A DNA stretch of 64,000 nt, taken from NCBI GenBank assembly GCA_009773565.1, contig WSXY01000003.1, forward strand, positions 1-64,000. Reading direction: 5' to 3'. Below are positions 1-15,633 of this stretch, piece after piece. Made by a program: the position numbers and the translations under genes. This DNA comes from Actinomycetota bacterium (GTDB lineage Bacteria; Actinomycetota; Coriobacteriia; Anaerosomatales; Anaerosomataceae). The stretch's first letter is position 1; each line of letters begins with the position of its first letter. The notes beneath the pieces were generated by a model. The model made no database searches and was not told the DNA's origin. It saw only the letters and a list, made by a program, of their open reading frames with translations.

Positions 1-44
1 TGCTTCTGGACGTAGAGGACTGACATCCACCTGCTCCTCACAAG

Positions 45-1154
45 TTGGCAGTCTGGAGTCGGCTGGCTCGGGCGTTCGAACTACCCGCACCACGACCAGG
101 AGGTCACAATGCCAAAGGAAACGGTCTCAATGCCGTATCGGCTGGCTCATGCGTTCGAACTGCAGAAGAAAGAGTTCTCGTACTCCCACAAGTCGGCCTT
201 GCAGAAGTCTCAATGCCGCATCGGCTGGCTCATGCGTTCGAACGACATGATGGACATCGCGCCAGGCAAGAAGATCGTAGTCTCAATGCCGCATCGGCTG
301 GCTCATGCGTTCGAACTCGACGACCCCATGACCGACACCACACAAGAGGACGTGCGGCTGTCTCAATGCCGCATCGGCTGGCTCATGCGTTCGAACCGCG
401 AGTCGAGTTCAGGTACAAAGGCCGCGTCGTCGTGTCTCAATGCCGCATCGGCTGGCTCATGCGTTCGAACGCACACGCCCATGCCAAAGTGGACGAGGTC
501 TTCGAGTCTCAATGCCGCATCGGCTGGCTTATGCGTTCGAACTCTAAGAACATGGCTCCAGAGATGGAACTCGACCTGCAGTCTCAATGCCGCATCGGCT
601 GGCTCATGCGTTCGAACCTGGGTACATCAACGCATGGGCTGTTCATAACGCAGGTGTCTCAATGCCGCATCGGCTGGCTCATGCGTTCGAACGCGACAAG
701 GTCGTCGTCGGTCACTACTACGGCTTCACGTCTCAATGCCGTATCGGCTGGGTCATGCGTTCGAACGACTCCGCCTTCATGCTGCTGCCACATCCGGACA
801 ACTAGTCTCAATGCCGTATCGGCTGGGTCATGCCTTCGAATTGAAAGACGTGCTCGTGTTCGAGTCGGGGGAGAGCATCCTCATGTCTCAATGCCGTATC
901 GGCTGGCTCGTGCGTTCGAACTCATCGAGGTCGGAGACGTTGCCGCAACCCCTATCTACAAGAAGTCTCAATGCCGTATCGGCTGGCTCGTGCGTTCGAA
1001 CGCGTATCTCGGAAGCACCATCAATGCTGCTGTCACTGGTGTCTCAATGCCGTATCGGCTGGCTCGTGCGTTCGAACATGCCATTGCAAAGGATGACATC
1101 AAGAGGTTGCGTCGTATGTCTCAATGCCGTATCGGCTGGCTCGTGCGTTCGAAC
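45..1154 (-). CRISPR. CRISPR array, 14 intact 37-nt repeats plus one degenerate terminal repeat, 14 spacers
   Basis: Intact repeats start at 124, 207, 280, 360, 434, 506, 581, 656, 730, 805, 885, 965, 1041 and 1118; a degenerate copy at 45-81 keeps only its right half. Spacers are 35-46 nt. On the plus strand each repeat begins GTCTCAATGCCG and ends GTTCGAAC. Read on the minus strand it contains GCCG-ATA-CGGC, a 4-bp hairpin, followed at once by ATTGAGAC, an 8-nt tail like the canonical type III crRNA handle ATTGAAAC. That, the leftward cas operon and the degenerate left-end repeat all indicate minus-strand transcription with the leader near 1155-1314. Repeat variants are grouped in blocks along the array. 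Bases 1-44 hold nothing I recognise. Confidence 0.98.
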
Positions 1155-2156: not shown

Positions 2157-3308
2157 CTATCCCCCACCGTACTTGGACTTGAAGTCGTTCTTGCTTCGCA
2201 GGTCAAGCATGACAAGACGAGCTCCGTCCCATCCGCAAAGCACCCGAAAGTTCTCGTGCGGTCGGAAGTGGTCCACCCGTGCGAACTCGTCGGATTTCAT
2301 GCCCTCCATTCGATCGTAGTGCAGACCGGCGGCTCCGATCGATGACCATCCCCTCGTGGAGCGTAGAGTCACGCTGGCCTTGGCGAGGCTCTCCTGAAAT
2401 GCCGCACGCAAATTCCTGTCCTTCTGAGCCTCAAACCCGCCCACAAAAGGGTCGCGATACTCCAGGTTCGGCCAGGGGAGCAGCCGCTCCCCATAGATCT
2501 CCTTCTTCAGCGCTCCCCAGTACATCGATGCCAGGTCGCTCATCCAGTAGGCATCGTCGCCAACCTCGGTCAGAAGCGCGCCATCAATCCCGGAGACTTC
2601 GTCGGTAGTGAGCTCCTCGCCCTGCTCCATGCGTCCGAATGCGACTGCATGCTCCCGGAACGGTGTCTCGTCGAAACGCAGGGGGTACGCAGGCAGCCTG
2701 ATGCCCTCCTCGCCAGTCTCAAAGACGTATGAGATCTCAGCGTGGTGCAACATGCCCAACACAGTCAGGTAACCGACAAGCGCCTTGAACCCTCCCGCGG
2801 TGCAGAAGACCACACGGCTGCTCGTGTCAGTGCGAGTGGGAAGCACGTTCCCGCACCACGTCGAGAGATCGCCCACCGCTCGGGAGAACGATCTATTCGA
2901 TGATGTGTTGAGTCCCTTGAATCGAATGATCTCGACGCACGTAACCCCAGAAGCGCGGAGCACAAGCTCCACAAGTTGCGCAGCTTGATCGCCCACATAT
3001 GTGTCGCTCGGAATCAGGTAGTGCTGGTCGGTGGGCGTCGGTCGGGAGTCCGAATCGGCGAAGTAACGGTTGATGCCGTTGAGCTCTGCTGACAGATTAG
3101 GCAGAACAACACTGGCACCGGTTAGGTCGCCGACGCGCGCGCGAACCTCCGCGATTCGGGCGTCGATGGCCGCCTTGTCCTCGAGCGAAAGCTGGCTCGC
3201 TTGCAGATTGGCGGTACCGGCAGGGGGCCGCCAGTTCTCCTGATCGTCCAGCCCATTGGTGAGGATGCTGGTTCCCACCGGGGAGAGCATGATGTTGCGC
3301 ACGTGCAT
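2157..3308 (-). CDS. CARF-domain effector with RelE-like C-terminal domain (Cami1-like candidate)
   Basis: The 383-residue protein opens with a CARF domain of the APE2256/TIGR02619 type: the start motif LSPVGTSILTN, then FCTAGGFKALVGYLT and SYVFETGEEG near residues 165-205. CARF domains bind the cyclic oligoadenylate made by Cas10. The last 80 or so residues do not look helical like HEPN; the run FRVLCGWDGARLVMLDL followed by basic residues and KSKY (from about residue 354) resembles the final beta-hairpin of RelE/HigB mRNA interferases. CARF-RelE fusions (Cami1) cut ribosome-bound mRNA when activated. The start is supported by AGGAGAT five bases upstream. The CARF call is strong; the RelE assignment is my inference from residue pattern and needs a profile or structure comparison. 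Confidence 0.75.
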   Translation of the reverse strand: MHVRNIMLSPVGTSILTNGLDDQENWRPPAGTANLQASQLSLEDKAAIDARIAEVRARVGDLTGASVVLPNLSAELNGINRYFADSDSRPTPTDQHYLIPSDTYVGDQAAQLVELVLRASGVTCVEIIRFKGLNTSSNRSFSRAVGDLSTWCGNVLPTRTDTSSRVVFCTAGGFKALVGYLTVLGMLHHAEISYVFETGEEGIRLPAYPLRFDETPFREHAVAFGRMEQGEELTTDEVSGIDGALLTEVGDDAYWMSDLASMYWGALKKEIYGERLLPWPNLEYRDPFVGGFEAQKDRNLRAAFQESLAKASVTLRSTRGWSSIGAAGLHYDRMEGMKSDEFARVDHFRPHENFRVLCGWDGARLVMLDLRSKNDFKSKYGGG

Positions 3309-3317
3309 GCTGATCTC

Positions 3318-3719
3318 CTATCGCCGTGTTCTCGCTCGACTTCGCATGGCCTCAAGGTTAAGAACCTCCGCGAGCCGGTAGTTTCGCACCAAAGCGCCGT
3401 CGTCTGGAGCAAAGCGCACGATGGCCGGGAAGTGGCCGAGCCTACCGTGGAGTTCGGCGAGTACCACGGCGGTCAGCGGCGCGTGCGTGGGCAAGCCGAC
3501 AACAAGATTCAGCCGTGGCCAGTCGCCCGGATCGATGTTGGTAGCGTCGATTGCCGCGACCACCTGTGGCTCAAGCAGCTCCGAGAGGTTGGCGGCAAAC
3601 TCCACCTCGTGGAGGGAGAAGCCCTCACACCCCGCGGCCTCGACAATCTCATCGACAACCGCGGGAGTGAGCGCATGTCCGAAGTTGACTATGTGGAGGA
3701 TACGGTCCGTCGTAGGCAC
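3318..3719 (-). CDS. csx15: CRISPR-associated protein Csx15
   Basis: The 133-residue protein matches my memory of the Csx15 family: an N-terminal HIVNFGHALTP stretch, a central EPQVVAAID segment, and a C-terminal run with ELHGRLGHFPAIVRF and a NYRLAEVLNLEAMRSRAR tail. Csx15 occurs with type III systems and is thought to bind or remove cyclic tetra-adenylate and so damp the signal made by Cas10. Its GTG start overlaps the TAG stop of the insertion-bearing Cas7 gene by one base, and the CARF effector begins 9 bases after its stop, so signal-handling and effector genes are co-transcribed. I cannot show enzymatic activity from sequence. Confidence 0.75.
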   Translation of the reverse strand: MPTTDRILHIVNFGHALTPAVVDEIVEAAGCEGFSLHEVEFAANLSELLEPQVVAAIDATNIDPGDWPRLNLVVGLPTHAPLTAVVLAELHGRLGHFPAIVRFAPDDGALVRNYRLAEVLNLEAMRSRARTRR

Positions 3720-6007
3720 TAGCGCGGGCCCCTTCGGTACTCCTCGATGTACGGCAGTCCGGTGTCATTCGCAAGCGCCGGAAGCGAGTAGCCCAACGTC
3801 ACCTCGCCTCTCGACGCACGCTCGTTCTGCGCAAACCACTTGAACAGTTCGCCCGTTGCCGGCGGAGGCGGCAGCTCGGTGCCGGACTTCGTCCGCGGGT
3901 AGATGACCGGCAGGCCGTCGTCGAACCCTGTGGCGGCGCAAAGGTAAGCGGCGATGAACGCGGCGCCCTCGAATGAGACCGAAGTGGATTCCTCGACCGC
4001 ACTGACGAATGCTGCAACGAACCGCGCCGGCTCGAGAGTTTCCGACAATCCGCCTGCACCGAAGGCGCGGTAGTCGTCGGCGATCTGCTCGCCTGAGCTT
4101 GCCGCGGAGCCCGCTTCTTGAAGGGTCACGCGGACGCTTCCATAGCCGTACGGCTTCGCGCCGCCCATTCGCATGAAGTGCTCAGCGGGAAGGGTGGTGA
4201 GCCATAAGAGCGCACCGAGTTCCACCGCGCTCAGGTTGGCGTAGTCGATGGCCACGCTGAAGCGCGCGCCCGGCCTGATCCAGCCACTCACGCTCCGGTT
4301 CTGACGATCCAACTGCTCCTGCCCGCTCAGCTTCGGGCGCCGATACTCCTGGAACCTGCCGGCTTGGGCGGACTGCGTGCGGTCCTCCATCGGATCGCTC
4401 CAGTAGCCCCCCGGCAGACCGGCATGATGCGGGTAGACCTTGCGGCCCCTCAGGAGTTGCTCAGGCGCATAGCCGTCGGCCTTCGTGAGACCACGGAACA
4501 GCGGGGCCGCATCGGGAGACTGTCCCACGTAGAATCGGAATTGCTGCGGCTTTGGTTGCCCCAGAATCGGGAGTGGCAATCCTGGACTAAACGAAACGAT
4601 CGCGTCGTCGTCGAGGCACTGAGTAGCCCCCACACGAACCTGACCGCGATAGCCGCCCTGTCCGGAAGCGTTGACCCACCCGAAGACACGGTCAGCCGGT
4701 GAGAACTCATCGAACCTGGAGGCTGGCTTCAAGGAAGGGTGGAGCAACTGCTCTGGTGACCGAGCGTAGAGTTCCCGACCGATCATGACCGGGTAGATGC
4801 CCTTGAGGACAAGACCTCCGTCGTCCTTGCGGTGCATGCGTGCATAGAGAAGCGTGCCCGGAGCGAGCTCACGTTCGCCTTCGCCGCCGGTGACGTGGCG
4901 AGACCACTCGATTCTCCCCCCTGCGGCGCTGGGGCCACGAACGTTGTGCCGTACCTCATCGGCGTGTGTGTCCTGGAAGTTGGTGATCAACTCACGCCAC
5001 GCAGCGCGACGGGTTTCGGTTATGGGGACTCTCTTCGGATCGTCGACGTCACTGAAGAAGAGACGCTCATCATGCTTCTTGGGGAAGTTGTGACCCGTGC
5101 GGCACACCCAGCCCTCAATAAGCCGTCGGTCTCCGTCGACCACGGCGTCCCTGATTGGTGTCGATTGAACACGCTCGACCATCCAATGGAGCAGCGGGCC
5201 CGTTCCAACCCGACGGACAAGCGCGTGAACGTGCTGGCCGTGGCGCAGGTCCCCGAGTCTGTTTTGCTGGCGGTCCGGAAGATACGCGGGAATCCACGCC
5301 GCGTACTGCTCTGCGCTCGGCTTGTTCCCACGCGCCACGGTCGACGTGCCCATGAGCAGTTCGATCTTGGCACCGTCGTCGCTGACTCTAGCCGGAACGA
5401 GCGTGAGCGCGACCGTGCTCGCGTCCTGACGGTAGGCGAGCCGCTGGGAATGTCGCTGCTGCCACACCCCAAAGCGAGAGTTAGTAACGGCCTCATACGC
5501 AGAGCGCAGCGCGCCCTTGACGGTAGTGGGGGGCAAATAGGGACGACCGTCCGGGCCCACCCGCACCGGGAAGGACTTGTGATCGTCGCCTTCGGCTGCG
5601 GCCGAATCCGGAACGAGCAGCGGCGTCTCAACCGTCAGCTGCAGCTTCAGTGACCCGGTGAAAAGACCCGGCTTGAGGGATTCGTGACCGACCGGAGCAT
5701 GATCGCCGAGGTCCGGGTGTGCGAGATTCCTGGGTAGTGCCGGCACGAAGTTGTAGGCGTTGTGGAAATCTCCCGGGACTCCGCGGTCAGCAACCGCAAC
5801 ATTTGACGTGGTTGCACCCGCAACCGCGACCCTCGTAGGCGTTAGGCCGTCGAACTCCACGGAGACCTCGATGGTTGCCTTCTGAGCCGCGGCCCGCATC
5901 GCTTCGTCAATAATCGACTCGTCGATCTCCTTGCTCTGATAGAAGGGACCCGACGTCAGGCGATACTTCTTGCCATCGAACTTGAGCGTTCCGGGCTGCC
6001 TAGCCAT
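3719..6007 (-). CDS. Insertion-bearing Cas7 subunit of type III-D (TIGR03986-like RAMP protein)
   Basis: A 762-residue RAMP protein, far longer than a single Cas7 of about 250 residues. The N-terminal third has YNFVPALPR and then a Cas7 core with LTVETPLLVPDS and RPYLPPTTVKGALRSAYE near residues 130-175. The glycine-rich loop (MGGAKPYGYGSVRV) lies near residue 625, so most of the protein between them is an insertion. The motif order fits TIGR03986 proteins, the Cas7-insertion subunit of III-Dv complexes. It would form the end of the crRNA-binding filament and may contribute an RNA cleavage site, since acidic residues occupy the expected loop. The start overlaps the end of csx19 by 8 bases. 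Confidence 0.85.
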   Translation of the reverse strand: MARQPGTLKFDGKKYRLTSGPFYQSKEIDESIIDEAMRAAAQKATIEVSVEFDGLTPTRVAVAGATTSNVAVADRGVPGDFHNAYNFVPALPRNLAHPDLGDHAPVGHESLKPGLFTGSLKLQLTVETPLLVPDSAAAEGDDHKSFPVRVGPDGRPYLPPTTVKGALRSAYEAVTNSRFGVWQQRHSQRLAYRQDASTVALTLVPARVSDDGAKIELLMGTSTVARGNKPSAEQYAAWIPAYLPDRQQNRLGDLRHGQHVHALVRRVGTGPLLHWMVERVQSTPIRDAVVDGDRRLIEGWVCRTGHNFPKKHDERLFFSDVDDPKRVPITETRRAAWRELITNFQDTHADEVRHNVRGPSAAGGRIEWSRHVTGGEGERELAPGTLLYARMHRKDDGGLVLKGIYPVMIGRELYARSPEQLLHPSLKPASRFDEFSPADRVFGWVNASGQGGYRGQVRVGATQCLDDDAIVSFSPGLPLPILGQPKPQQFRFYVGQSPDAAPLFRGLTKADGYAPEQLLRGRKVYPHHAGLPGGYWSDPMEDRTQSAQAGRFQEYRRPKLSGQEQLDRQNRSVSGWIRPGARFSVAIDYANLSAVELGALLWLTTLPAEHFMRMGGAKPYGYGSVRVTLQEAGSAASSGEQIADDYRAFGAGGLSETLEPARFVAAFVSAVEESTSVSFEGAAFIAAYLCAATGFDDGLPVIYPRTKSGTELPPPPATGELFKWFAQNERASRGEVTLGYSLPALANDTGLPYIEEYRRGPR

Positions 6008-6542
6008 GTGCGACCACCTCCAGGCTCAAGAGACGCTCCTCGACGACGGCCGCGTTGCCGTACTCGTCCTCTATGGCGATGTACTCGCGATATCGAATCA
6101 CGGCCTGACCGCCATCGGGCAACCCGTGGACTGGAATCTGCAGCGCGCCGATTCGCGATTCCGCGACTTCACTCCAGCCTGGGGAGGGAACGCGTCCGGT
6201 CCCGGTGCCCCAGAGCAAGTACGTGCCGTCCAGCGTCTCTGTAGCCTCCAGCGCGGGTTCCCCCAAACCCTCCTCGCTGAGCACGACGAAGCTACCCTCA
6301 CCACCATGAGTGTGGAGCCACCTCAGTTCAGCCTTCGGACTGAAGACTCGCGCTTCGAATGCGGCACTCGCATCGATGGCACCGCTAGCGCCGACTATCT
6401 TTGCGCTTTCGAGTGCCCCGACGAGACAGGCCGACGGTGTGTACACGAGCGCCACGGTTCCGCTACCCAGCGTGTCGCTGAATCGGGAAACCGCATCGGC
6501 GAGCGAGGTACCTTCTCCCCTCGTCGCAAACAACTGCGTCAT
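6000..6542 (-). CDS. csx19: Type III-D CRISPR-associated protein Csx19
   Basis: The 180-residue protein has the TIGR03984/Csx19 hallmarks: FEARVFSPKAELRW, then GTYLLWGTG, SRIGALQIPV, a tyrosine-rich YREYIAIEDEYGN and ERLLSLE at the end. Csx19 is diagnostic of subtype III-D and is a structural subunit near the Cas10/Cas5 end of the III-Dv effector complex. It starts with an ATGA overlap on the stop of the double-Cas7 gene and its 3' end overlaps the next gene, so translation is coupled along the backbone operon. No enzymatic motif is visible. Confidence 0.85.
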   Translation of the reverse strand: MTQLFATRGEGTSLADAVSRFSDTLGSGTVALVYTPSACLVGALESAKIVGASGAIDASAAFEARVFSPKAELRWLHTHGGEGSFVVLSEEGLGEPALEATETLDGTYLLWGTGTGRVPSPGWSEVAESRIGALQIPVHGLPDGGQAVIRYREYIAIEDEYGNAAVVEERLLSLEVVAHG

Positions 6543-8044
6543 GATTGGTCCCCTCCTTCAACGTACTCGATCCACGCTCGGCCGATTTCCCCAGCGAACG
6601 AGAGGTCCCAGGGGGCCGCCCATGCGAACGTGGCGAGCTCCTGCATGTCTACCGGCAAGTCCTGCCCTTCGAAACGGATCGCATCGACCGCAATCTCGCC
6701 CAGACCACGATTGCCGCCGAATCCCAGTGGCAGTGAGCCCCGCGCCAGATCCCGCAAAGCAAGAAGCAGCAGCCCGAGCCCGGCGGGCGCGCTATCCTCG
6801 CTCAGTCGATCGAGATCAATGGAGATGCGCAGCGGTTCGTACTCGATTGCAAAGGGCTCAACGGTCGTGAAGAGCTGTCTGTCGGCAGCACTGCCAGTCC
6901 AGCGATCGACCGCCACGTGGTAGGCAACGGTGGACTTCTCGAGTCCTGCAGTGCGTAGGCCCTCGAGGACATCCGCGTCAGTCGCTGCTGCCTCGATCTT
7001 CGCCCAATCTCCGGCGTCGGCGCGGTGATGGGCGTAGGCGTCGTCGATGCCCACAGCCCCGAGGCCGGGCATCCACTCAGCGTCCTCAGCCCCTTCTCCC
7101 GTCGCTCCAAACAACTCGGATACCAGAGGAACGTCAATCTGAGCGCGAAACTCATCGCCCTTTTCGGCTTTCTGCGCCCCGGATGCCATCACAGTGCGCA
7201 CGATTCGCTCGGCATTAGCGCGCAGGACACCCTTCACGCTGCTGCCCGGAACCACCAGCGCCACACCGTCGTCTGTGTGGCCAACCAAGGGAAGGTGATC
7301 CACGCCAAGGTTCGCGCGACCTGAACCCACCATGAGTGGGCCGACCGAGCGCCAATCGACAGTCACTTCAAGCATCGGGACGGGGTTCATCGGGAGCGCG
7401 GCGAGCTCATCGATCCGAAGCTCCTCCGGACTTCCCCTAAGCACCGAAAGCATCCCCGCTCGCGAGCCAAGGTCCTGGCGAAGCACCTTGGCATTCTCCA
7501 GCACCACGCGACCGAGTCCCCTCGTTTTGCCTGCCCCCAAGCGGATCAGGCCTTGCGAGAGCGCACGAACGAGCTCGGCAACCTGAGACTCAACATGGGC
7601 CGCATCGTCTGCAAGCGCAGCATCGACGAGGATTCTGATCGCGAGGCGCGAGTCGCGAGGCAGAACCGCGCGATCATACTTGACCGAAGGGGCTGCCGCC
7701 CCGGTGACTCTGTCGATACCGACACCGTCGCGAACTTCAACGGAAGCTCCCTTGGGCAGCGCAACCACTGCGTCCTCTACGGTCACGAAACTCGCATGCC
7801 CCGCATCGCTGCGTTGGAAGCCCCACAACCCGTCGACCGCGGGCTCGCCGCCAAGGACGCGGCGCGTCATCCACTCACGAAGCGCTCCCGCCAGACTGGT
7901 GCCAGGAACGTAGAATCGTCCCCGCCCATCGACAGCTGGCACAAGATCGACCACATTCCCTTCGGTCTCTCCACCTACGTGCACCGGAGTCAGAGCCCGA
8001 AGGTCACCCTCGATGATCCATCGCGCGTGAACAGTTCTGGCCAT
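6539..8044 (-). CDS. Double Cas7 (Cas7-2x) RAMP subunit, type III-Dv-like
   Basis: Two Csm3-like Cas7 units are fused in 501 residues. Unit 1 has VHVGG, an acidic residue at D33 and YVPGTSLAGALREW, with its glycine loop RLGAGKTRGLGRV near residue 190. Unit 2 has MVGSGRANLGVD, then VVPGSSVKGVLR near residues 255-280, a LFGATGEG segment and the loop PLGFGGNRGLGEI near 450. In Csm3-type subunits the acidic residue in the first loop cuts target RNA, and D33 sits in the same place; unit 2 has an aspartate in the equivalent GVDHLPL. The gene is sandwiched by stop/start overlaps between the Cas7-Cas5-Cas11-like gene and csx19. Confidence 0.87.
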   Translation of the reverse strand: MARTVHARWIIEGDLRALTPVHVGGETEGNVVDLVPAVDGRGRFYVPGTSLAGALREWMTRRVLGGEPAVDGLWGFQRSDAGHASFVTVEDAVVALPKGASVEVRDGVGIDRVTGAAAPSVKYDRAVLPRDSRLAIRILVDAALADDAAHVESQVAELVRALSQGLIRLGAGKTRGLGRVVLENAKVLRQDLGSRAGMLSVLRGSPEELRIDELAALPMNPVPMLEVTVDWRSVGPLMVGSGRANLGVDHLPLVGHTDDGVALVVPGSSVKGVLRANAERIVRTVMASGAQKAEKGDEFRAQIDVPLVSELFGATGEGAEDAEWMPGLGAVGIDDAYAHHRADAGDWAKIEAAATDADVLEGLRTAGLEKSTVAYHVAVDRWTGSAADRQLFTTVEPFAIEYEPLRISIDLDRLSEDSAPAGLGLLLLALRDLARGSLPLGFGGNRGLGEIAVDAIRFEGQDLPVDMQELATFAWAAPWDLSFAGEIGRAWIEYVEGGDQS

Positions 8045-10365
8045 CAGACTTCACTCCCCTCTGACACGAGTGCTCTCGTGGAGGCAGCGCCTTCTCCACG
8101 CTTTCGGGCGCGAACACACGCATCGACCAGGGCTCGAACTGCTTCGCCCCACAGGACGTCCATGAGTTCTGATTCGCCCCCCGTGGTCGCGGTGATCTCA
8201 GCCGCCCAGCTTTGTGCCTGAAGCACCTCCCAGACCCGCTCGGATGATTGACCCAGAGCCACGATCTGTCGCGGTACCTTGAACGAACCGCTCTTCGATT
8301 CCACGTGAGCGCACCACTGTTGGAACTGGTTCTCGGCCTCTCGGCGCAGTGGGCCCGGTGCCACATCAAGCCACGAGACCGCGCTCAAGAGCACCGACGC
8401 CTGGCTTGAGCCAAGAGGACCGCCAAGCACCTCAGCGACGCCGACCTTGGATGATGCAACTTCAAGGCACTTGCGGGCGATGACCTGCCGCCATGCCGCT
8501 AGCTCGACAATACGGGCGAACTCAAAACCCGGGTCGCCCTCAGCGACCACGGACGTTGGTGCACTTGAAGGATTGGCGCTTCCGGGCGTCCTTGATGCTG
8601 CCGATTCGACGAGGAGCGGGTCATCGAACGCGATGCGGCCGAAACCCTCGGCGCGACGCTCCCCGAGTCCCGCGACCGAAACCTCGGCAAGCCTCTTTGG
8701 ATCCAGCTTGCCAGACACTTCGAAGGCAATGCAGGTGCCTGCGCGCAGCCCCGCGAGCGATGGCCGCGGCAACGACCAGCGTGCCTGCCATGATTCTCGC
8801 CGAGTCGCCGAGGCGGCGACCGTGGTGGGCTCACGAGCGGCGAGAGTCAGAGTCACCCCGAGTTCCTGACCTAACACCCGGGCAAGATCGAGCGGCGAAG
8901 AGCTTGGGCGCAGCAAGTCATTGCGAACCAGAAGATCGGACAAGAGCCACACCGTGAGTAGATCGTTCGACCCGGCAACTGCACCAGATGTGGCGACGGG
9001 TGCGCCCGCCACATGCATGCTTGCGGAGCCGTACTCACCCTTCTTGCCGGTACCCAGGGATATCCTGGCGTTCAATCGCTCCCACCATCGTGTATCGGCG
9101 CTGCTGAGTACGTCGACAACACCCTTACGCACGAGCACCTTACCCGCCAACTTCGTACCCGAGGGAATGGATCGGAGGGTGTAGAGCCCCGCCGCGCCGA
9201 TCGGGCGCTGGCTGTCGTCGCTGACTGAGTTGTGTGACTCAGTGCCAAGGGATGCCGGGCAATGCGCCGGGAGAATCCCAGCCGTTGTAGCGCCGATCCA
9301 GCCACCCGCCTCCTTCGCCAACTGAGAGTCCGTCGGCGCACTATCGACGAAACGATTCAGCACTCCCTTGCCGGACGAGAGACCCGGCTCACCCTTGAGT
9401 CGGGCGAACGCGAGGGGAACCGGACGGCCTGCGTCGCCGGCGACAACCGGCGTTGCGTCTGACAGAAGCAGCTCCCCGCCGCCGATGGCGGAACTGATAT
9501 CCGCCACGGGGCGAAGCAAACGCGAGACAGCGCCGAGAAGATGGGTGCCTGGAACGAAATCGAGCGACTCAAGCACGTTGCCGATCGTTCCGTTGGCAAT
9601 AGCCAACGGCGACAAGGCCTCTATCTCGAAGTCGAGAGAAAGCCACTCTCCACCGCGAGCATTCTGCACTTCAGGGGCGGAAACTGGAGCCCGTTGAGGG
9701 AGCGCGCCCGGATCAGCCACGTGGTTACTCAGCCAGGAGATCCACTTGGAAGCGTCGGCGCCGCTGATGCTCATCGTACATCGGCCCGCACCACGCCTTC
9801 GCTTGCCGCCAACGCGCTCGACCATGCTGGCACCCGCCACGAGCAGCGCAAACGCCGCAGGCGGGACGGCGTCGGTCAGGAACTCACACTCCGCAGAAAG
9901 CTGGCTTCCGCAGCGCGCGACTTCCTCAAACCGCAAGAAGTCGTCTTGAGCGCGGCCGGAGCGCCTGTCGATCTTGACGCCCGCCTTGACGAACGTGGCC
10001 GCCGCGCAAAGAGCCGGCTTCGAGCCGAGTGCCGCCAACAGCGACGCCGGATAGTGCGCCGAGCGGATCGACAGAGCTGCTGGTGCGGGCGGGAGGTCTC
10101 TGACCTCGCCCTCCTGTACCTGCTGCCCGAACAGGAAGTCGACCCAGCCGGCCCACGCGCCGCGTGCCCCGTCATCGAGTCCGGAGGCAACAAGCTCGCA
10201 TCCGTCACGAAGGATGCCCGCGAGCGTCTTACCCGGGAGATACGGCAAACCGTCGGCATCGCGCCGTACAAGCCGATCGACGTCACCCGGCCGACCAGCA
10301 CCGGAACCGATGTGCCAGTCGGACAGCATATCGATGGAAAGAGAGAACGTTTTCGGAGTCTCCAT
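8044..10365 (-). CDS. Cas7-Cas5(Csx10)-Cas11-like fusion subunit, type III-Dv-like
   Basis: This 773-residue protein looks like three backbone parts in one chain. Residues 1-200 are a Cas7/RAMP unit with HIGSGAGRPGDVDR, LPYLPGKTLAGILRDG and the basic glycine loop GGKRRRGAGRC. Residues about 240-590 match Csx10, the Cas5-like protein of III-D, with LSPLAIANGTIGN, LDFVPGTHLLGAVSR and a late GLGERRAEGFGRIAF loop. The last 140 residues appear mostly helical, as expected for a Cas11-like small subunit. Aspartates D28 and D30 lie in the putative RNA-cleaving loop of the Cas7 part. ATG at 10365 overlaps the cas10 stop by one base; a GTG three bases upstream is the alternative. The Cas11 part is inferred from position and composition. 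Confidence 0.82.
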   Translation of the reverse strand: METPKTFSLSIDMLSDWHIGSGAGRPGDVDRLVRRDADGLPYLPGKTLAGILRDGCELVASGLDDGARGAWAGWVDFLFGQQVQEGEVRDLPPAPAALSIRSAHYPASLLAALGSKPALCAAATFVKAGVKIDRRSGRAQDDFLRFEEVARCGSQLSAECEFLTDAVPPAAFALLVAGASMVERVGGKRRRGAGRCTMSISGADASKWISWLSNHVADPGALPQRAPVSAPEVQNARGGEWLSLDFEIEALSPLAIANGTIGNVLESLDFVPGTHLLGAVSRLLRPVADISSAIGGGELLLSDATPVVAGDAGRPVPLAFARLKGEPGLSSGKGVLNRFVDSAPTDSQLAKEAGGWIGATTAGILPAHCPASLGTESHNSVSDDSQRPIGAAGLYTLRSIPSGTKLAGKVLVRKGVVDVLSSADTRWWERLNARISLGTGKKGEYGSASMHVAGAPVATSGAVAGSNDLLTVWLLSDLLVRNDLLRPSSSPLDLARVLGQELGVTLTLAAREPTTVAASATRRESWQARWSLPRPSLAGLRAGTCIAFEVSGKLDPKRLAEVSVAGLGERRAEGFGRIAFDDPLLVESAASRTPGSANPSSAPTSVVAEGDPGFEFARIVELAAWRQVIARKCLEVASSKVGVAEVLGGPLGSSQASVLLSAVSWLDVAPGPLRREAENQFQQWCAHVESKSGSFKVPRQIVALGQSSERVWEVLQAQSWAAEITATTGGESELMDVLWGEAVRALVDACVRARKRGEGAASTRALVSEGSEV

Positions 10366-11972
10366 CACAGCAGCCCCCCCTTCATAAACTCGGAGATCTC
10401 GACAGCGTCGAGCAGGCGCGTCGCACGCCCGTCACCGTCATCGAAGAAGAGCGACTCACTGGAACCGAGCAGCTTCTCAGCTGCTGGATACGAACCTCGG
10501 ACCAAGGCGAACTGCGCATCGGCCGCGGCCGCCCCCATGAAGAGCGCCGACCTGAGCGCGTGCACCTGACTGTTGGGGACCGGGGCGTCCTCGCCTCCGC
10601 GAGCGATACCTGACAGTGCGGTCGCGAGGAGTTCGACCGCGTGCTGGCCAATCCAGCCAGAGGCATCGCTCTCGCCGGTGAGCTTACTCGCAACGTATGG
10701 GCGGCCATGAAGCCGCTCGCCGTCCGCCATCCGCAGCTGTGAACGGAGAGCGCCGAGCTCGGAAGCGGTGGTGTCGTAGAGCGCATGGAAGTCAAATACC
10801 GAGAAGCCGGGATTGAGGTGCCCCGCTGCCTTCCGGGAAGCGTCTTTGGCGGATTGCAGCAGTTCCTCGGCGAGACCATATGCTGCCCAGAACGGATAGT
10901 GTTTGCGAACAATGGCGACACCTGCGGCGGCGGTCAGGTGGTCACGGCCCAGGGCTGCCTGAGCGATACTCGCGAGTACTGGCTCGTTGGCGGTCCGTGA
11001 CTCGAACGCCCTCAAAAAGGCGACGGTGAGCGGCAAAGCGCTCTTTGCATCTGTCACAAGGGTGACATCGTCGCCACCTAGAACGAGGGGCTGCACAAGC
11101 GGCGCGCCGTCCGGACCAGCGCCTTTTCCCGCGGTCGACGCAATTGCGTCGCGGACCGCCTGACCGGTGGCTCGCTCAAGCGCGACCGAGAACTCGCGCA
11201 TGGTCGTGAGATATGCCCGATCGTCATCGCCGGCGTACTTCTCGAAGTCGATGAGAAGGCGACCGATGCCGTTGCCATCAGCATGGATAACAGCGATCCA
11301 GGCGCCGACTCCGGCAACCTGATCGAGCTCGGTCAACTGAGCGTTCAAGCCGATCGAGGCTGCAAGCCGTTGGTACCCGGCGTCTCGTACCGCTGCCTTC
11401 TTCGCACTAACTGTCGACACGGGACTGATGCGATCACGGTAGGTCTCGACGCCAGCAGCGGGAAGTCCGCTGCTGGCGCACTCCGCAACCACCGGGAGGC
11501 GGAAGTAACGCATTGTCGGCGAAGTCCGCATCTGACGAGCGTGCTCGAATCGCCGATGCAGCAGGTTCATCTGAGACGCTGCGATGCCGCGTCCCAGTTC
11601 GAATTCGTCGCTCATAACACCCGTCAAGTCGAGACCGGGTGCCTCGCGCAACGCGCGGGAGGTCACTGCGGAGATGAGAGCCCGGCCGGTCTTCTCGGAG
11701 TCGACGAGAATGATTGCTTTTCCAGAGGCCGCAACGATCACCTCGGCAACAACACCTGGGCCGATTGGAGGGTTCACCCCCGAGTCGAGAAGCGACTCCG
11801 CGAGTGCTGCACCGGTCGGAAGGCTCGGACCTCCCAGCTCCGACAGCGCCTCGGTCACCCAGGTCGTTCCGGATCTGTAGGTCAGTTCTGATGCCCCGAC
11901 GTTCTCCCTTAGCCGGTTGGTGGTGAAGATGTAGCGCTGATTACCCGATGTTTCAAGCAAGACAAGACGCAC
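10365..11972 (-). CDS. cas10: Type III Cas10 (palm/cyclase) subunit lacking an HD nuclease domain
   Basis: Cas10 makes cyclic oligoadenylates on sensing target RNA. The protein starts directly with the palm region (LVLLETSGNQRYIF, LRENVGASELTYRSG), has the first palm motif HADGNGIG at about 230-237 and an intact catalytic GGDD at 299-302. At 535 residues it has no N-terminal HD DNase domain, which is typical of subtype III-D. I chose GTG at 11972 because a GGGGGG ribosome-binding stretch lies about 6 bases upstream and because the family starts at this point; an in-frame ATG at 12005 would add 11 residues. It leads the operon, so effectors downstream depend on the same transcript. Confidence 0.93.
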   Translation of the reverse strand: MRLVLLETSGNQRYIFTTNRLRENVGASELTYRSGTTWVTEALSELGGPSLPTGAALAESLLDSGVNPPIGPGVVAEVIVAASGKAIILVDSEKTGRALISAVTSRALREAPGLDLTGVMSDEFELGRGIAASQMNLLHRRFEHARQMRTSPTMRYFRLPVVAECASSGLPAAGVETYRDRISPVSTVSAKKAAVRDAGYQRLAASIGLNAQLTELDQVAGVGAWIAVIHADGNGIGRLLIDFEKYAGDDDRAYLTTMREFSVALERATGQAVRDAIASTAGKGAGPDGAPLVQPLVLGGDDVTLVTDAKSALPLTVAFLRAFESRTANEPVLASIAQAALGRDHLTAAAGVAIVRKHYPFWAAYGLAEELLQSAKDASRKAAGHLNPGFSVFDFHALYDTTASELGALRSQLRMADGERLHGRPYVASKLTGESDASGWIGQHAVELLATALSGIARGGEDAPVPNSQVHALRSALFMGAAAADAQFALVRGSYPAAEKLLGSSESLFFDDGDGRATRLLDAVEISEFMKGGLL

Positions 11973-12036
11973 GTTTTGCCCCCCTAGGTTGCCCTCCGGT
12001 CCCAACAGCCGAACCGCCCCCGAGCATATTCATCCG

Positions 12037-12256: not shown

Positions 12257-12289
12257 TGTGTATGATTCATACACACTTGGAGTGTGGTC
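12257..12289 (+). promoter_or_regulatory. Probable VapB operator: 19-bp palindrome plus ACACT-N3-AGTGT
   Basis: TGTGTATGATTCATACACA at 12257-12275 is a perfect 9-1-9 palindrome. It is followed by a second inverted repeat, ACACTTGGAGTGT at 12273-12285, that overlaps its right edge and ends 8 bases before the vapB ATG. TATACT at 12248-12253 could be the -10. Ribbon-helix-helix antitoxins bind such repeated half-sites and repress their own operon. The second part recurs upstream of the MazF-type pair at 34223-34244. Confidence 0.7.
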
Positions 12290-12293
12290 TGTA

Positions 12294-12560
12294 ATGGCGC
12301 GAATCAACATCACTATCCCTGACGGACTGCTAGAGGATGTCGACCGAACGGCGGAGAGCCTGGGGACATCGAGAAGCGCATTCCTCCAGGAAGCCGGCGC
12401 ATGCTACATCGCCGAGATCACCGAATCGCGCGAGCGCGAACAGCGTGTGCGCGACATCGACGCAGCGATCATGCGTGCACGCACCGTCGGCGCGAAGATG
12501 AAGCCCGGGTTTGACGCGATGACCCAGATCCGCAAAGACCGGGAGCGTGATGGGAAGTGA
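12294..12560 (+). CDS. vapB: Ribbon-helix-helix antitoxin of a VapBC-type pair
   Basis: An 88-residue protein whose first 45 residues (ARINITIPDGLLEDVDRTAE, then SRSAFLQEA) form a ribbon-helix-helix DNA-binding fold of the CopG/MetJ type; the rest is charged and helical, fit to wrap the toxin. ATG at 12294 is chosen over an upstream in-frame ATG because the family start motif begins right there and the operator lies just ahead of it. The GTG start of the toxin overlaps its TGA stop. It should neutralise the PIN ribonuclease downstream and repress the shared promoter. Confidence 0.85.
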   Translation: MARINITIPDGLLEDVDRTAESLGTSRSAFLQEAGACYIAEITESREREQRVRDIDAAIMRARTVGAKMKPGFDAMTQIRKDRERDGK

Positions 12561-12973
12561 CCGGCTCTGTCTGTGTGGACACATCGGTCGCATTCAAATG
12601 GTTCTCGCCCGCCGAGGAGCCCGGGGTTGACGAAGCTCTGAAGTTGCTTCGGTCACATCGTGACAACGAGATAGCGCTCCTGGCTCCCTCGATCATGCGA
12701 GTCGAAGTCGCGAACGCGCTGCGCTACTCAGGCTGCGGCGCACCTGATCTTCGCGAGGCCATTCAGGACCTTACCCGGTTCCACATCGAATTCGTCGAAC
12801 TCAGCGACTGTACCCTGGCGCACGCGGGGGAGCTCGCGATTGAACACCGATTGAGCGTGTACGACGCAACATTCCTCGCGTTGGCCATTGAGCGAGAGTG
12901 CGTTCTCGTGACGGCTGATCGAAAGGCCTTCGGTCGTCTGCCGACGTCACTCTGCGAGATTCGACTGCTTTAG
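12557..12973 (+). CDS. vapC: PIN-domain toxin ribonuclease, VapC family
   Basis: The 138-residue protein is one PIN domain with all four acidic residues that hold the catalytic metal: D8 in CVDTSV, E50 in MRVEVANAL, D103 in VYDATFLALA and D121 in TADRKAF. VapC toxins cut tRNA or rRNA when freed from the antitoxin. The GTG start overlaps the vapB stop (GTGA), the classic coupled arrangement. It points away from the adjacent cas operon and converges on the LysE-type exporter 25 bases downstream. Confidence 0.9.
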   Translation: MTGSVCVDTSVAFKWFSPAEEPGVDEALKLLRSHRDNEIALLAPSIMRVEVANALRYSGCGAPDLREAIQDLTRFHIEFVELSDCTLAHAGELAIEHRLSVYDATFLALAIERECVLVTADRKAFGRLPTSLCEIRLL

Positions 12974-12997
12974 CCGAGAATTCGCGCCAGACACCCG

Positions 12998-13633
12998 TCA
13001 GCCCGTAAGCCCCGCCACGATCGCGATCAGCCCGAAGATCGCCACGAGCGCGCCCGAAACCCGACTGACGCCCCCGAGCACGCGATCGCCCACGCGCGCC
13101 CGCGCGAGCGAACTCACCGTCACAAGCGCGACCCACCATGCAAGCGAGCCGCTCACAACACCGGCAGTCGCGATGGCAGCGGTCGCCGAACCCGGCTGTG
13201 CGGCAAGCCCGGCGCTCGCGAAGATCGCGCCGAACGCCATGATCGTCATCGGGTTCGTCAACGTGAGTCCCACCGCCGAGGCGTAGAGCGTCGCAAGCCC
13301 CCGTCCGTCGAGCGGATCCGCCGAGGCGCATGCAACCGTCTTGGGCTGCGTCAACATCGCGCGCACGCCCAGGTAGACGAGCACGGCGCCCCCGACGAGC
13401 CGCAGCGGCGTCTGCCAGGTCACGAGCACACCCGAGAGCGCCGAAAGCCCGAAGGCCGCGATTGCCGCGTAGACGCCGTCGGCTGTGGCGATGCCGAGTC
13501 CGGTCGCAAGCCCCGCGCGTGCTCCCCTGTCGAGCGTTCGCTGGATGCACAGGACGCCCATCGCGCCGACAGGTGCGGCCACGAGGATGCCGATGATGAA
13601 GGTACGCGCGTAGAGCGCGACGATCGGCGACAT
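12998..13633 (-). CDS. LysE/RhtB-family amino acid exporter
   Basis: A 211-residue membrane protein with about six hydrophobic segments and the family's N-terminal signature GILVAAPVGAMGVLCIQRTL, followed by a GLATGLGIATADGVYAA loop and the TNPMTIMAF motif in the third to fourth segment. LysE-type proteins export basic or small neutral amino acids and related metabolites; the substrate cannot be read from sequence. The gene starts one base after the stop of the pdtaR-like gene, so the three genes pdtaS, pdtaR and this exporter form one transcript. Confidence 0.85.
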   Translation of the reverse strand: MSPIVALYARTFIIGILVAAPVGAMGVLCIQRTLDRGARAGLATGLGIATADGVYAAIAAFGLSALSGVLVTWQTPLRLVGGAVLVYLGVRAMLTQPKTVACASADPLDGRGLATLYASAVGLTLTNPMTIMAFGAIFASAGLAAQPGSATAAIATAGVVSGSLAWWVALVTVSSLARARVGDRVLGGVSRVSGALVAIFGLIAIVAGLTG

Positions 13634-13634
13634 C

Positions 13635-14204
13635 CTACTTCTCGGCCTCGCTCGCGAGCACGACGGCCTCGGCGATCTCCTTGAGCGAGCGGCGCTTGTC
13701 CATCGCGAGCCGCTGGAGGCGCTTGAACGCCTCGGGCTCGGTCATGCCCTTGGCCGTAAGCACGCCCTTCGCGCGGTCGAGCACCTTGCGCGTCTCGAGT
13801 CGCTCGGACAGGTCGGTCACCTCGGTCTCAAGTGCGCGCGTCTCGGCGAAGCGGGAGACGGCGACGTGCATCGCCGGGAGAATATCGCGCTTGGTGAACG
13901 GTTTGACGAGGTATGCCATGGCACCCGCCGAGCACGCCTGCTCGACATATGAGGACTGTGAGAACGCGGTGACCATCACGATCGGCGCGACGCGCTCGGC
14001 TGTCAGGACGCCGGCAGCCTCGATGCCGTCCATTCCCGGCATCTTCACGTCCATGAAGACCACATCGGGCTTGAGCTCGCGCGCGAGGGCGATCGCCTCG
14101 GCGCCGTCGCGGGCTTCGCCCACGACTTCATGGCCTTCCTCGACCAGCATCTCGCGCAGGTCCATGCGGATGATGGCTTCATCCTCGGCGATCAGTACAC
14201 GCAT
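13635..14204 (-). CDS. pdtaR: ANTAR-domain response regulator, PdtaR-like
   Basis: The 189-residue protein has an N-terminal receiver domain with the acidic pocket E7/D8 and phosphoacceptor D52 in VFMDVKMPGMDG, then a short coiled coil and an ANTAR domain (RAKGVLTAKGMTEPEAFKRLQRLAMDKRRSLKEIA). ANTAR proteins bind paired hairpins in mRNA leaders and prevent transcription termination or alter translation, rather than binding DNA. It lies 4 bases after the kinase gene, an arrangement that matches PdtaS-PdtaR of actinobacteria. I saw no obvious twin-hairpin target inside the window. Confidence 0.9.
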   Translation of the reverse strand: MRVLIAEDEAIIRMDLREMLVEEGHEVVGEARDGAEAIALARELKPDVVFMDVKMPGMDGIEAAGVLTAERVAPIVMVTAFSQSSYVEQACSAGAMAYLVKPFTKRDILPAMHVAVSRFAETRALETEVTDLSERLETRKVLDRAKGVLTAKGMTEPEAFKRLQRLAMDKRRSLKEIAEAVVLASEAEK

Positions 14205-14208
14205 CAGG

Positions 14209-15633
14209 CTATTCCGCCTCTCCGGGCAAGTCGGGCACGGGGACTCGAATGGTCACGGTCGTCCCGCGCGCGCTCGAGAACGAAAGCGTCCCACGCAGGT
14301 CATCGCCGACGACGGTCTTCACGATGGCAAGTCCAAGATTCGCCGAGGAGTCTACATCAAAGCCCCCGGGAAGCCCGGCCCCGTCGTCGCGAACGACGAA
14401 GTGTATCTCACCGGGCAGGCGACGCATGCTCACGGCGACCACGCCGACGGGACGCTCGCCGATGCCATGCTCGATGGCGTTGTGGACGAGCTCGGCGCAG
14501 ACCAGCGCGAGCGAGGTCGCCACCGAGGCGGGAACGAGGCCGGTCTCGCCCTCGACCGTCACCGTCACGTCGGTTCCACTGTGCGCGAGGCTCTGGCGCA
14601 CCATATCGACGACCGTACGGGCCGCTTCGGCGAAGTCGACGGTCTCCTCGGTTGAAGCGGCCAGCATCTCGTGCACGACGGCCATCGAGGAGACACGCTC
14701 GACCGCCTCGGCAAGCGCGCGGGCGGCCTCATCACTGCCGGTGCGTCTCGCCTGAATACGCAGGAGCGAGGCGATCGTCTGCAGGTTGTTCTTCACGCGA
14801 TGATGGACCTCGCGGATGGTCGCTTCCTTGACGCGCAGTTCCTGCTCACGGCGGACGGCTTCGGTGATGTCTTCCACGAGGACGAGCGCGCCGGGCTTGA
14901 AACCGATGGAGCGGTACAGGAGCGCTCTGCCAGCCGCCTCGATCGTGATAGCGCGGGCGCCTCCCGAACGGACGACCGGCGTGATCGCGGTTGAACCACC
15001 GGGAAGCGTCGTGACTCCCCTGCCGATGACGCCGCCCTCAACGCCGGCCAGACGCATGATGTTGACGGCGTTCGGGCTCGCGTACGTAACGACGTCGGTC
15101 GCGTCGACTTCCATGACGCCGTCACCGGCGCGGCGGTTCGTTTCAAACGGCGCGTCGCTATCGATATCGATGATCGGCTCGCGCTCGAGTACCTCAAGTA
15201 CCCTGTCGGCGAGCGCCATGAAGGCGACTTCCATCTTGCCGGGTGCCTCGACGACCTGCTGGGTGAGGTCGCGGATAAGAACAGCGTACGGAGCACCCGC
15301 CGGTCCGACCGGGCGCGCCGACGTGAGGTACGAGATGCCGCGCGTCGTCCGACGTCGGACCCCGACGACCGCCGCGCCGCCTGCAAATGCGTCGTACGCC
15401 TCGGGTTCATCCTTGCGCGCCAGCGTGTGCCCGATACGCGAGGATGCCACGGCAGCCACCGCAGTCATCGGGCGCGCATCAGCAACGACCGTCAGCTTGT
15501 CGCCGTTCATGATCGCCAGCGCGACATCGCCGTAGCCAAGATCAGCTACGAGCTGCAGATTGTCGGCGACATTCGAAAGATGCGCGGCCGCAGGACCGGG
15601 CATGCCTTTGGGGAGACGAAATGGTGTGTCCAT
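14209..15633 (-). CDS. pdtaS: HisKA_2-type sensor histidine kinase, PdtaS-like
   Basis: The 474-residue kinase has no transmembrane segment. Residues 1-150 look like the GAF-type N-terminal domain of PdtaS, 160-265 a PAS domain, then the HisKA_2 box EVHHRVKNNLQTIASL with the phosphohistidine at 277/278 and a C-terminal ATPase domain with an N-box (ELVHNAIEHGI) and G-box (DDGAGL, NLGLAIV). It should phosphorylate the ANTAR regulator encoded 4 bases downstream. The ATG lies only 7 bases after a perfect TATAAT, so the mRNA is probably leaderless. Confidence 0.9.
   Translation of the reverse strand: MDTPFRLPKGMPGPAAAHLSNVADNLQLVADLGYGDVALAIMNGDKLTVVADARPMTAVAAVASSRIGHTLARKDEPEAYDAFAGGAAVVGVRRRTTRGISYLTSARPVGPAGAPYAVLIRDLTQQVVEAPGKMEVAFMALADRVLEVLEREPIIDIDSDAPFETNRRAGDGVMEVDATDVVTYASPNAVNIMRLAGVEGGVIGRGVTTLPGGSTAITPVVRSGGARAITIEAAGRALLYRSIGFKPGALVLVEDITEAVRREQELRVKEATIREVHHRVKNNLQTIASLLRIQARRTGSDEAARALAEAVERVSSMAVVHEMLAASTEETVDFAEAARTVVDMVRQSLAHSGTDVTVTVEGETGLVPASVATSLALVCAELVHNAIEHGIGERPVGVVAVSMRRLPGEIHFVVRDDGAGLPGGFDVDSSANLGLAIVKTVVGDDLRGTLSFSSARGTTVTIRVPVPDLPGEAE

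Follow-up and report, generated by a model that had tools for sequence, protein, structure and literature searches.

A type III-Dv operon with a CARF-RelE gene

The window, that is the whole stretch of 64,000 nucleotides analysed here, opens with a CRISPR array, and the genes beside it run on the minus strand in the order Cas10, Cas7-Cas5, Cas7-2x, Csx19, Cas7-insertion, Csx15, CARF7-RelE and Cas6, after which comes the array:

33..1154, no strand assigned: CRISPR array, 15 copies with a spacing of 72-83 bases, of which the first is a poor match (61% alike); truncated where the contig begins
1315..2148, minus strand: Cas6 (PF10040, E 3.1e-9)
2157..3308, minus strand: CARF7-RelE protein, 383 aa (PADLOC PDLC01934; AlphaFold model)
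3318..3719, minus strand: Csx15, a cA4-binding CARF-like regulator (NF040560, E 2.6e-29, 102 bits against a cut-off of 35)
3719..6007, minus strand: Cas7-insertion (TIGR03986, 288.4 bits against a cut-off of 161.35; 44.1% identity to Synechocystis)
6000..6542, minus strand: Csx19 (TIGR03984, E 2.1e-32; 36.1% identity to Synechocystis)
6539..8044, minus strand: double Cas7, Cas7-2x (two RAMP stretches, PF03787; Cas7_IIId, E 1.8e-125; 38.9% identity to Synechocystis)
8044..10368, minus strand: Cas7-Cas5 fusion (N-terminal Cas7/Csm3 models, then Cas5_IIId/Csx10; 37.9% identity to the Synechocystis fusion)
10365..12005, minus strand: Cas10, 546 aa, GGDD at residues 310-313 (PADLOC, E 1.3e-106; PF22335, E 3.5e-10)

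As the gaps between neighbouring genes are only -8 to +9 bases, the genes from Cas10 to Cas6 look like one operon. The five complex genes are collinear with CRISPR2 on pSYSA of Synechocystis sp. PCC 6803, each being 36.1 to 44.1% identical to its counterpart, which in the case of the Cas7-Cas5 fusion is Cas7-Cas5-Cas11. No HD domain was matched in Cas10 and its sequence holds no HD dipeptide. Judged by a Cas10 with GGDD, the III-D gene set and the Synechocystis gene order, the locus is type III-Dv. Divergent to cas10 and adjoining it lies a VapBC-type pair (12258-12973, plus strand), in which an antitoxin-like gene of the ribbon-helix-helix type precedes a toxin-like gene with a PIN domain.

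The whole assembly holds one PF09651 protein and one Cas10 palm. The CARF/SAVED families searched were PF09651, PF22230 and PF18145; the search for a Csx1 CARF, which matched in 2 of 14 control genomes, gave none in the assembly, and SAVED had no match in the genome but none in the controls either, which is no evidence of absence. As no Csx1 CARF was found, the CARF-RelE protein may be the main effector, with the proviso that in an assembly of 25 contigs that is 98.49% complete one effector may have been missed. All 14 occurrences of the core of the CRISPR repeat found in the genome search are in the window's contig. Elsewhere in the genome, contig C2 begins with a cas1 gene cut by the contig start (bases 1-822, L120), and about 1.7 kb past it encodes a protein of 646 residues with a CHAT protease domain (2481-4421; PF12770, E 1.5e-23); a second, weaker cas1 match lies on contig C12. 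We would guess that the start of C2 adjoins the CRISPR array at the break of the window's contig, although a search of the first 9 kb of C2 gave no copy of the repeat.

Relatives of the effector and the place of Csx15

Scans of genome contigs and viral contigs with the single protein found no relative, and an alignment was needed as query. The alignment-based search yielded 198 relatives, of which the best 80 were kept; 71 of these were aligned with our protein, giving 72 rows. Eight were left out as near-duplicates, judged from their C-terminal tails and names and not from computed identity (L026, L028, L042, L047, L051, L059, L061 and L081), and L031 was left out as it looked cut short. Sorted by their C-terminal end, the aligned relatives fall into type A (53) and type B (18).

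The five complex genes with a CARF-RelE gene next to them recur in three further loci, the last of which comes from a genome of the window's own family:

13995-15110: CARF-RelE gene of Synechocystis pSYSA (L005), type B end
9001-10122: CARF-RelE gene of Arthrospira sp. PCC 9108 (L060), type A end
12892-13695: CARF-RelE gene of genome G007 (L098), type A end

As the Synechocystis gene is of type B and the other two are of type A, III-Dv operons hold either RelE subtype. The two subtypes occupy one position in the operon, which looks like an exchange of toxin domains or of entire effectors.

Unlike in Synechocystis, where the gene of SyCsm6 (Sll7062) is directly downstream of Cas7-insertion in the collinear III-Dv operon, here Csx15 sits between Cas7-insertion and the effector. 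Csx15 was matched in 8 of 95 loci, two of which (L001 and L002) are the window itself, and had no match at the Synechocystis, Arthrospira or G007 locus; as the compared loci vary in length, its absence elsewhere means little. At 4854-6340 of a locus from a Chthonomonas bin (L017) the CARF-RelE gene runs with its 3' end into a Csx15 match, a second tight pairing.

A search for close relatives with PDLC01934 through 27 genomes of the family, 296 of the class and 396 of the phylum matched, besides the genome itself, G007 and eight other genomes of the phylum. A tail like that of our protein was found neither in G007 nor in the six of these eight that were compared. The protein has a long branch in the tree (1.81), and for this reason its sister is unsure.

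The CARF sensor part

The open reading frame at 2157-3308 starts with ATG and is intact. From the N-terminus to the C-terminus the protein consists of a CARF7 sensor, a small middle domain, of the kind called winged helix-turn-helix in Cami1, and a RelE fold. The PADLOC model PDLC01934 (CARF7--CARF_RelE) covers nearly the whole chain (residues 4-372, E 7.9e-76). The first-pass annotation, made from the sequence, had placed an APE2256-type CARF domain at the N-terminus, and Pfam agrees, since PF09651 (Cas_APE2256) matches residues 71-207 at E 9.8e-24 with 84.2 bits against a cut-off of 24.8; TIGR02619 matches below its own cut-off (33.6 against 37.45 bits).

2487..3302, minus strand: CARF sensor and small middle domain, residues 3-274 (PF09651; VIA-align to ring nucleases)
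3267..3269, minus strand: S14, equivalent of SyCsm6 S12 (pairwise alignment; 72 of 72 rows)
3084..3086, minus strand: E75, equivalent of SyCsm6 E70 (alignment; 72 of 72 rows)
2784..2786, minus strand: K175, equivalent of SyCsm6 K167 (alignment; 72 of 72 rows)

Thus, all three residues named for SyCsm6 are present and each is kept in every aligned row. In SyCsm6 they are described as serving ring-nuclease activity and ligand binding, and its K167A variant is reported to be inactive (PMC9676260). By analogy, we infer that the CARF7-RelE protein would have a self-limiting ring-nuclease activity.

Predicted fold of the protein and of its C-terminal domain

The AlphaFold2 model of the protein, built on the alignment of 72 rows, has a mean pLDDT of 90.3 and a pTM of 0.84. 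Its C-terminal part (2160..2465, minus strand: RelE-fold domain, residues 282-383; VIA-align and profile-profile match) is composed of a strand at 282-284, helices at 286-294, 298-317 and 322-326, and strands at 330-333, 345-351, 354-361 and 364-372, ending with a helix at 373-380. In the model this order of elements is of the RelE type and not that of an all-helical HEPN domain, as the first-pass annotation had expected, and the folds that would have spoken against it, all-helical or nuclease-unrelated, were not seen. Folded alone, the domain again takes an alpha/beta RelE topology (pLDDT 89.7), and a HEPN C-terminus is rejected on both models.

The suggested comparison of the predicted structure with RelE and Cami1 bore out both likenesses. 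With the full model, Foldseek ranks 1-4 are chains of Cami1 of Allochromatium vinosum (PDB 8phb, 8phj; E 1.7e-14 to 6.5e-13), followed by the Crn1-type ring nucleases Sso1393 and Sis0811, and M. jannaschii RelE is matched at E 0.012. VIA-align places Sis0811 at Z 20.3 (residues 3-272) and Sso1393 at Z 19.4; these two share the CARF and small domain, roughly residues 1-274, and are without a RelE domain. Cami1 (8phb) aligns over residues 5-383 (Z 18.7, rmsd 9.6, 306 aligned), and residues 282-381 cover M. jannaschii RelE in all of its 85 residues (Z 11.2, rmsd 1.9). The RelE, YafQ, HigB, YoeB and ParE toxins are matched by the C-terminal part alone.

For the domain alone, the best Foldseek match is M. 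jannaschii RelE at 1.0e-3, none having an E below 0.001. VIA-align gives M. jannaschii RelE Z 11.0, HigB and YafQ about 10, Cami1 9.1, ParE entries 8.3 to 9.4 and E. coli RelE 7.8. Among the 50 matches listed, which run from Z 11.0 to 7.7, every row belongs to a toxin, to a toxin-antitoxin entry, to Cami1 or to HP0894 of H. pylori. Taken singly, a Z of about 8 would be weak, and it is because the listed matches agree on one superfamily that they support an assignment to the RelE superfamily. Thus, of the RelE/HigB-like C-terminus proposed earlier the RelE fold stands, whereas the likeness to HigB is no stronger than that to RelE, YafQ, YoeB or ParE.

Sequence searches with the C-terminal domain alone are not enough to assign it to RelE. 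Pfam matched no family with this domain; with the C-terminal domains of 54 members it gave YafQ in two (best E 0.065) and ParE_like in one (E 0.017), and unrelated families came up with comparable E. The sole row of the PDB sequence search up to E 10 is a YafQ chain (E 0.19), and a profile search with subtype B returned chance-like rows only. The assignment is therefore carried by the fold, by PADLOC, where the last 114 residues alone match PDLC01934 at E 2.2e-8, and by the profile-profile comparison, in which hhalign aligns the type A set with a set of ten RelE/YafQ sequences at E 2.6e-6 and a probability of 88.7%, an E that stands for one comparison and not for a database search.

The RelE active site and the altered end of the domain

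Two stretches of the RelE domain bear on its activity:

2244..2270, minus strand: RelE active-site strands, residues 347-355 (R355 in 72 of 72 rows; hhalign alignment)
2169..2207, minus strand: diverged last strand and tail, residues 368-380, with L368, D369, R371, K373, F376 and Y380 (comparison with type A)

In the hhalign alignment H347, R349 and R355 pair with K52, K54 and R61 of E. coli RelE. R355, the equivalent of Arg61, is kept here as in all 72 rows, and among the 53 type A relatives the residues shared with our protein are F348 (53), C358 (52), R349 (48) and H347 (46). Mutational work on RelE reports lower cleavage for R61A, R81A and Y87A and no significant drop for K52A, K54A and Y87F (PMC2807027).

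The end of the domain is different. Type A relatives have R368 in 45, G371 in 51, H373 in 39 and V376 in 49 of 53 cases, and the R368, G371 and H373 of this set are absent from the tail of our protein, where D369, R371 and K373 face the basic-x-Gly-x-His of the relatives. The aspartate at 369 takes a position that is basic or aromatic (His, Arg, Tyr, Lys or Trp) in all 53 relatives of type A. Position 373 pairs with RelE R81, the position at which a His is described as a key catalytic residue of YafQ-type toxins (PMC7584586); it is His in 39 of the 53 and here K373, which is basic, yet neither Arg nor His. Opposite RelE Tyr87 the alignment has K377; F376 precedes this lysine by one residue and Y380 follows it by three, and it is a guess that F376 or Y380 might replace this tyrosine. 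A frameshift close to the 3' end does not seem to be the cause, as the tail motif of the relatives is in none of the three frames on this strand. A Bacillota relative (L055, 2460-3605) is also without the G-x-H end motif and also has a long branch.

Of the positions conserved in the relatives, some are kept (R355, H347, R349) and others differ (D369, R371, K373), and the diverged tail weakens the case for mRNA cutting by this protein.

Discussion

Two characterised proteins share the architecture described here. SyCsm6 is also a CARF7-RelE protein (29.9% identity), its RelE tail being of subtype B, whereas the domain here is type A-like. In vitro, the purified protein is reported to degrade cA4 and cA6 and to leave total RNA uncut, and its authors consider an action on translated mRNA possible (PMC9676260). 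Cami1, a protein captured by the ribosomal stalk, is 23% identical to our protein in an alignment of seven rows and belongs to a Cmr (III-B) locus, in contrast to III-Dv here; the structural alignment ends near residue 353 of its gene product of 381 residues, so that about 28 C-terminal residues are without counterpart here if the PDB numbering follows the gene. It is described as cleaving mRNA at the A site on cA4, and one survey counts it in 135 of 1113 type III loci (PMC11229360). The YafQ, RelE and HigB toxins have the fold of the C-terminal domain but pair with an antitoxin, whereas the RelE domain here is joined to a CARF sensor instead.

Based on these data we propose that the CARF7-RelE protein is probably a cyclic oligoadenylate-activated, self-limiting and ribosome-dependent mRNA cutter of the Cami1/SyCsm6 kind, damped by Csx15. 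The proposal builds on the predicted fold, on the operon, and on conserved residues in the CARF domain and at the RelE Arg61 position. The Synechocystis III-Dv complex is reported to make cyclic oligoadenylate on target RNA (PMC11026444), and by this precedent the Cas10 complex would recognise invader RNA and its GGDD palm would make the signal. The ligand, probably cA4, would bind a CARF dimer around K175, and its binding would free or orient the C-terminal RelE domain, which in the manner of Cami1 would enter the ribosomal A site, cut mRNA and stop translation. As in SyCsm6, the CARF domain would slowly cut its own ligand via S14, E75 and K175, and the neighbouring Csx15 may mop up or degrade leftover cA4; Csx15 of other species is described as a cA4-binding filament that sequesters or slowly degrades cA4 (PMC13148439), and an earlier paper reports no cA4 degradation by a Csx15 (PMC12409355). 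Of the Cami1-like mRNA cutter proposed in the first-pass annotation, the pairing of CARF and RelE domains is thus borne out by profile, fold and gene context, whereas the cutting and the translation arrest are drawn from the relatives.

There are points against this proposal, as SyCsm6, whose gene has the corresponding position in its operon, left total RNA uncut, though it is of type B, and as R368, G371 and H373 are lost, the domain alone has no Pfam family and no Foldseek E below 0.001, and ParE shares the fold. Alternatively, the RelE domain might no longer be a ribonuclease, the protein serving mainly, as SyCsm6 seemed to do, as an off-switch that degrades cyclic oligoadenylate (a ring nuclease), or else as a ribosome blocker that does not cut. 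The broken type A end motif, the ring-nuclease activity of SyCsm6 in a protein without in vitro RNase activity, the kept S14, E75 and K175 and the long branch all fit such a protein, but with one Cas10 and no Csx1 CARF in the assembly, the searches with PF09651, PF22230 and PF18145 left it without an effector to switch off. The prediction of the RelE fold is also a confident one, with H347, R349 and R355 remaining, and we consider this alternative unlikely. As far as these searches go, with a single Cas10 palm, a single PF09651 CARF and no Csx1 CARF, an effector role falls to the CARF7-RelE gene.

That the C-terminal domain is a ParE-like toxin directed against something else than mRNA, such as gyrase, seems very improbable to us. 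ParE entries are among the VIA-align matches and score above E. coli RelE, and ParE toxins are described as being without the RNase residues (PMC11980606), but M. jannaschii RelE, HigB and YafQ match equally well or better, R355, which aligns with the catalytic R61 of RelE, is invariant, and Cami1 of the same architecture is reported to be an mRNA interferase (PMC11229360). A CARF-HEPN effector of the Csm6/Csx1 kind can hardly be entertained; PADLOC does assign several of its Csm6 models to the CARF part, yet both structure models show an alpha/beta C-terminal domain of RelE topology, and none of the listed matches of this domain falls outside the toxin and toxin-antitoxin entries, Cami1 and HP0894.

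A bolder reading can be put forward as a speculation that we would not bet on: CARF-RelE would be the sole death effector in a III-Dv system without detectable Csx1, with a RelE site rebuilt by His to Lys, basic to Asp, Gly to Arg and a new aromatic residue near the Tyr87 position. If true, the rebuilt site would cut by another chemistry or codon preference, or would occupy the A site and not cut, and the system would have three layers of control, namely target release, the effector's own ring-nuclease activity and a Csx15 sponge.

CARF-RelE effectors are common and form a class already well known, and a position next to the III-Dv complex has been described in Synechocystis; what the present analysis adds is this member, Csx15 inside a III-Dv operon beside the effector, and the altered RelE end. 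III-Dv has been proposed as an intermediate towards the single-protein III-E effectors (PMC11026444). The CARF-RelE protein of III-Dv may be an RNA cutter or only a signal remover, and the Synechocystis strain that was tested also has Csx1. The present locus, with Csx15 beside the effector and no Csx1 found, would offer a cleaner system for this question, and the changed toxin tail points to residues that may be relevant for the function.
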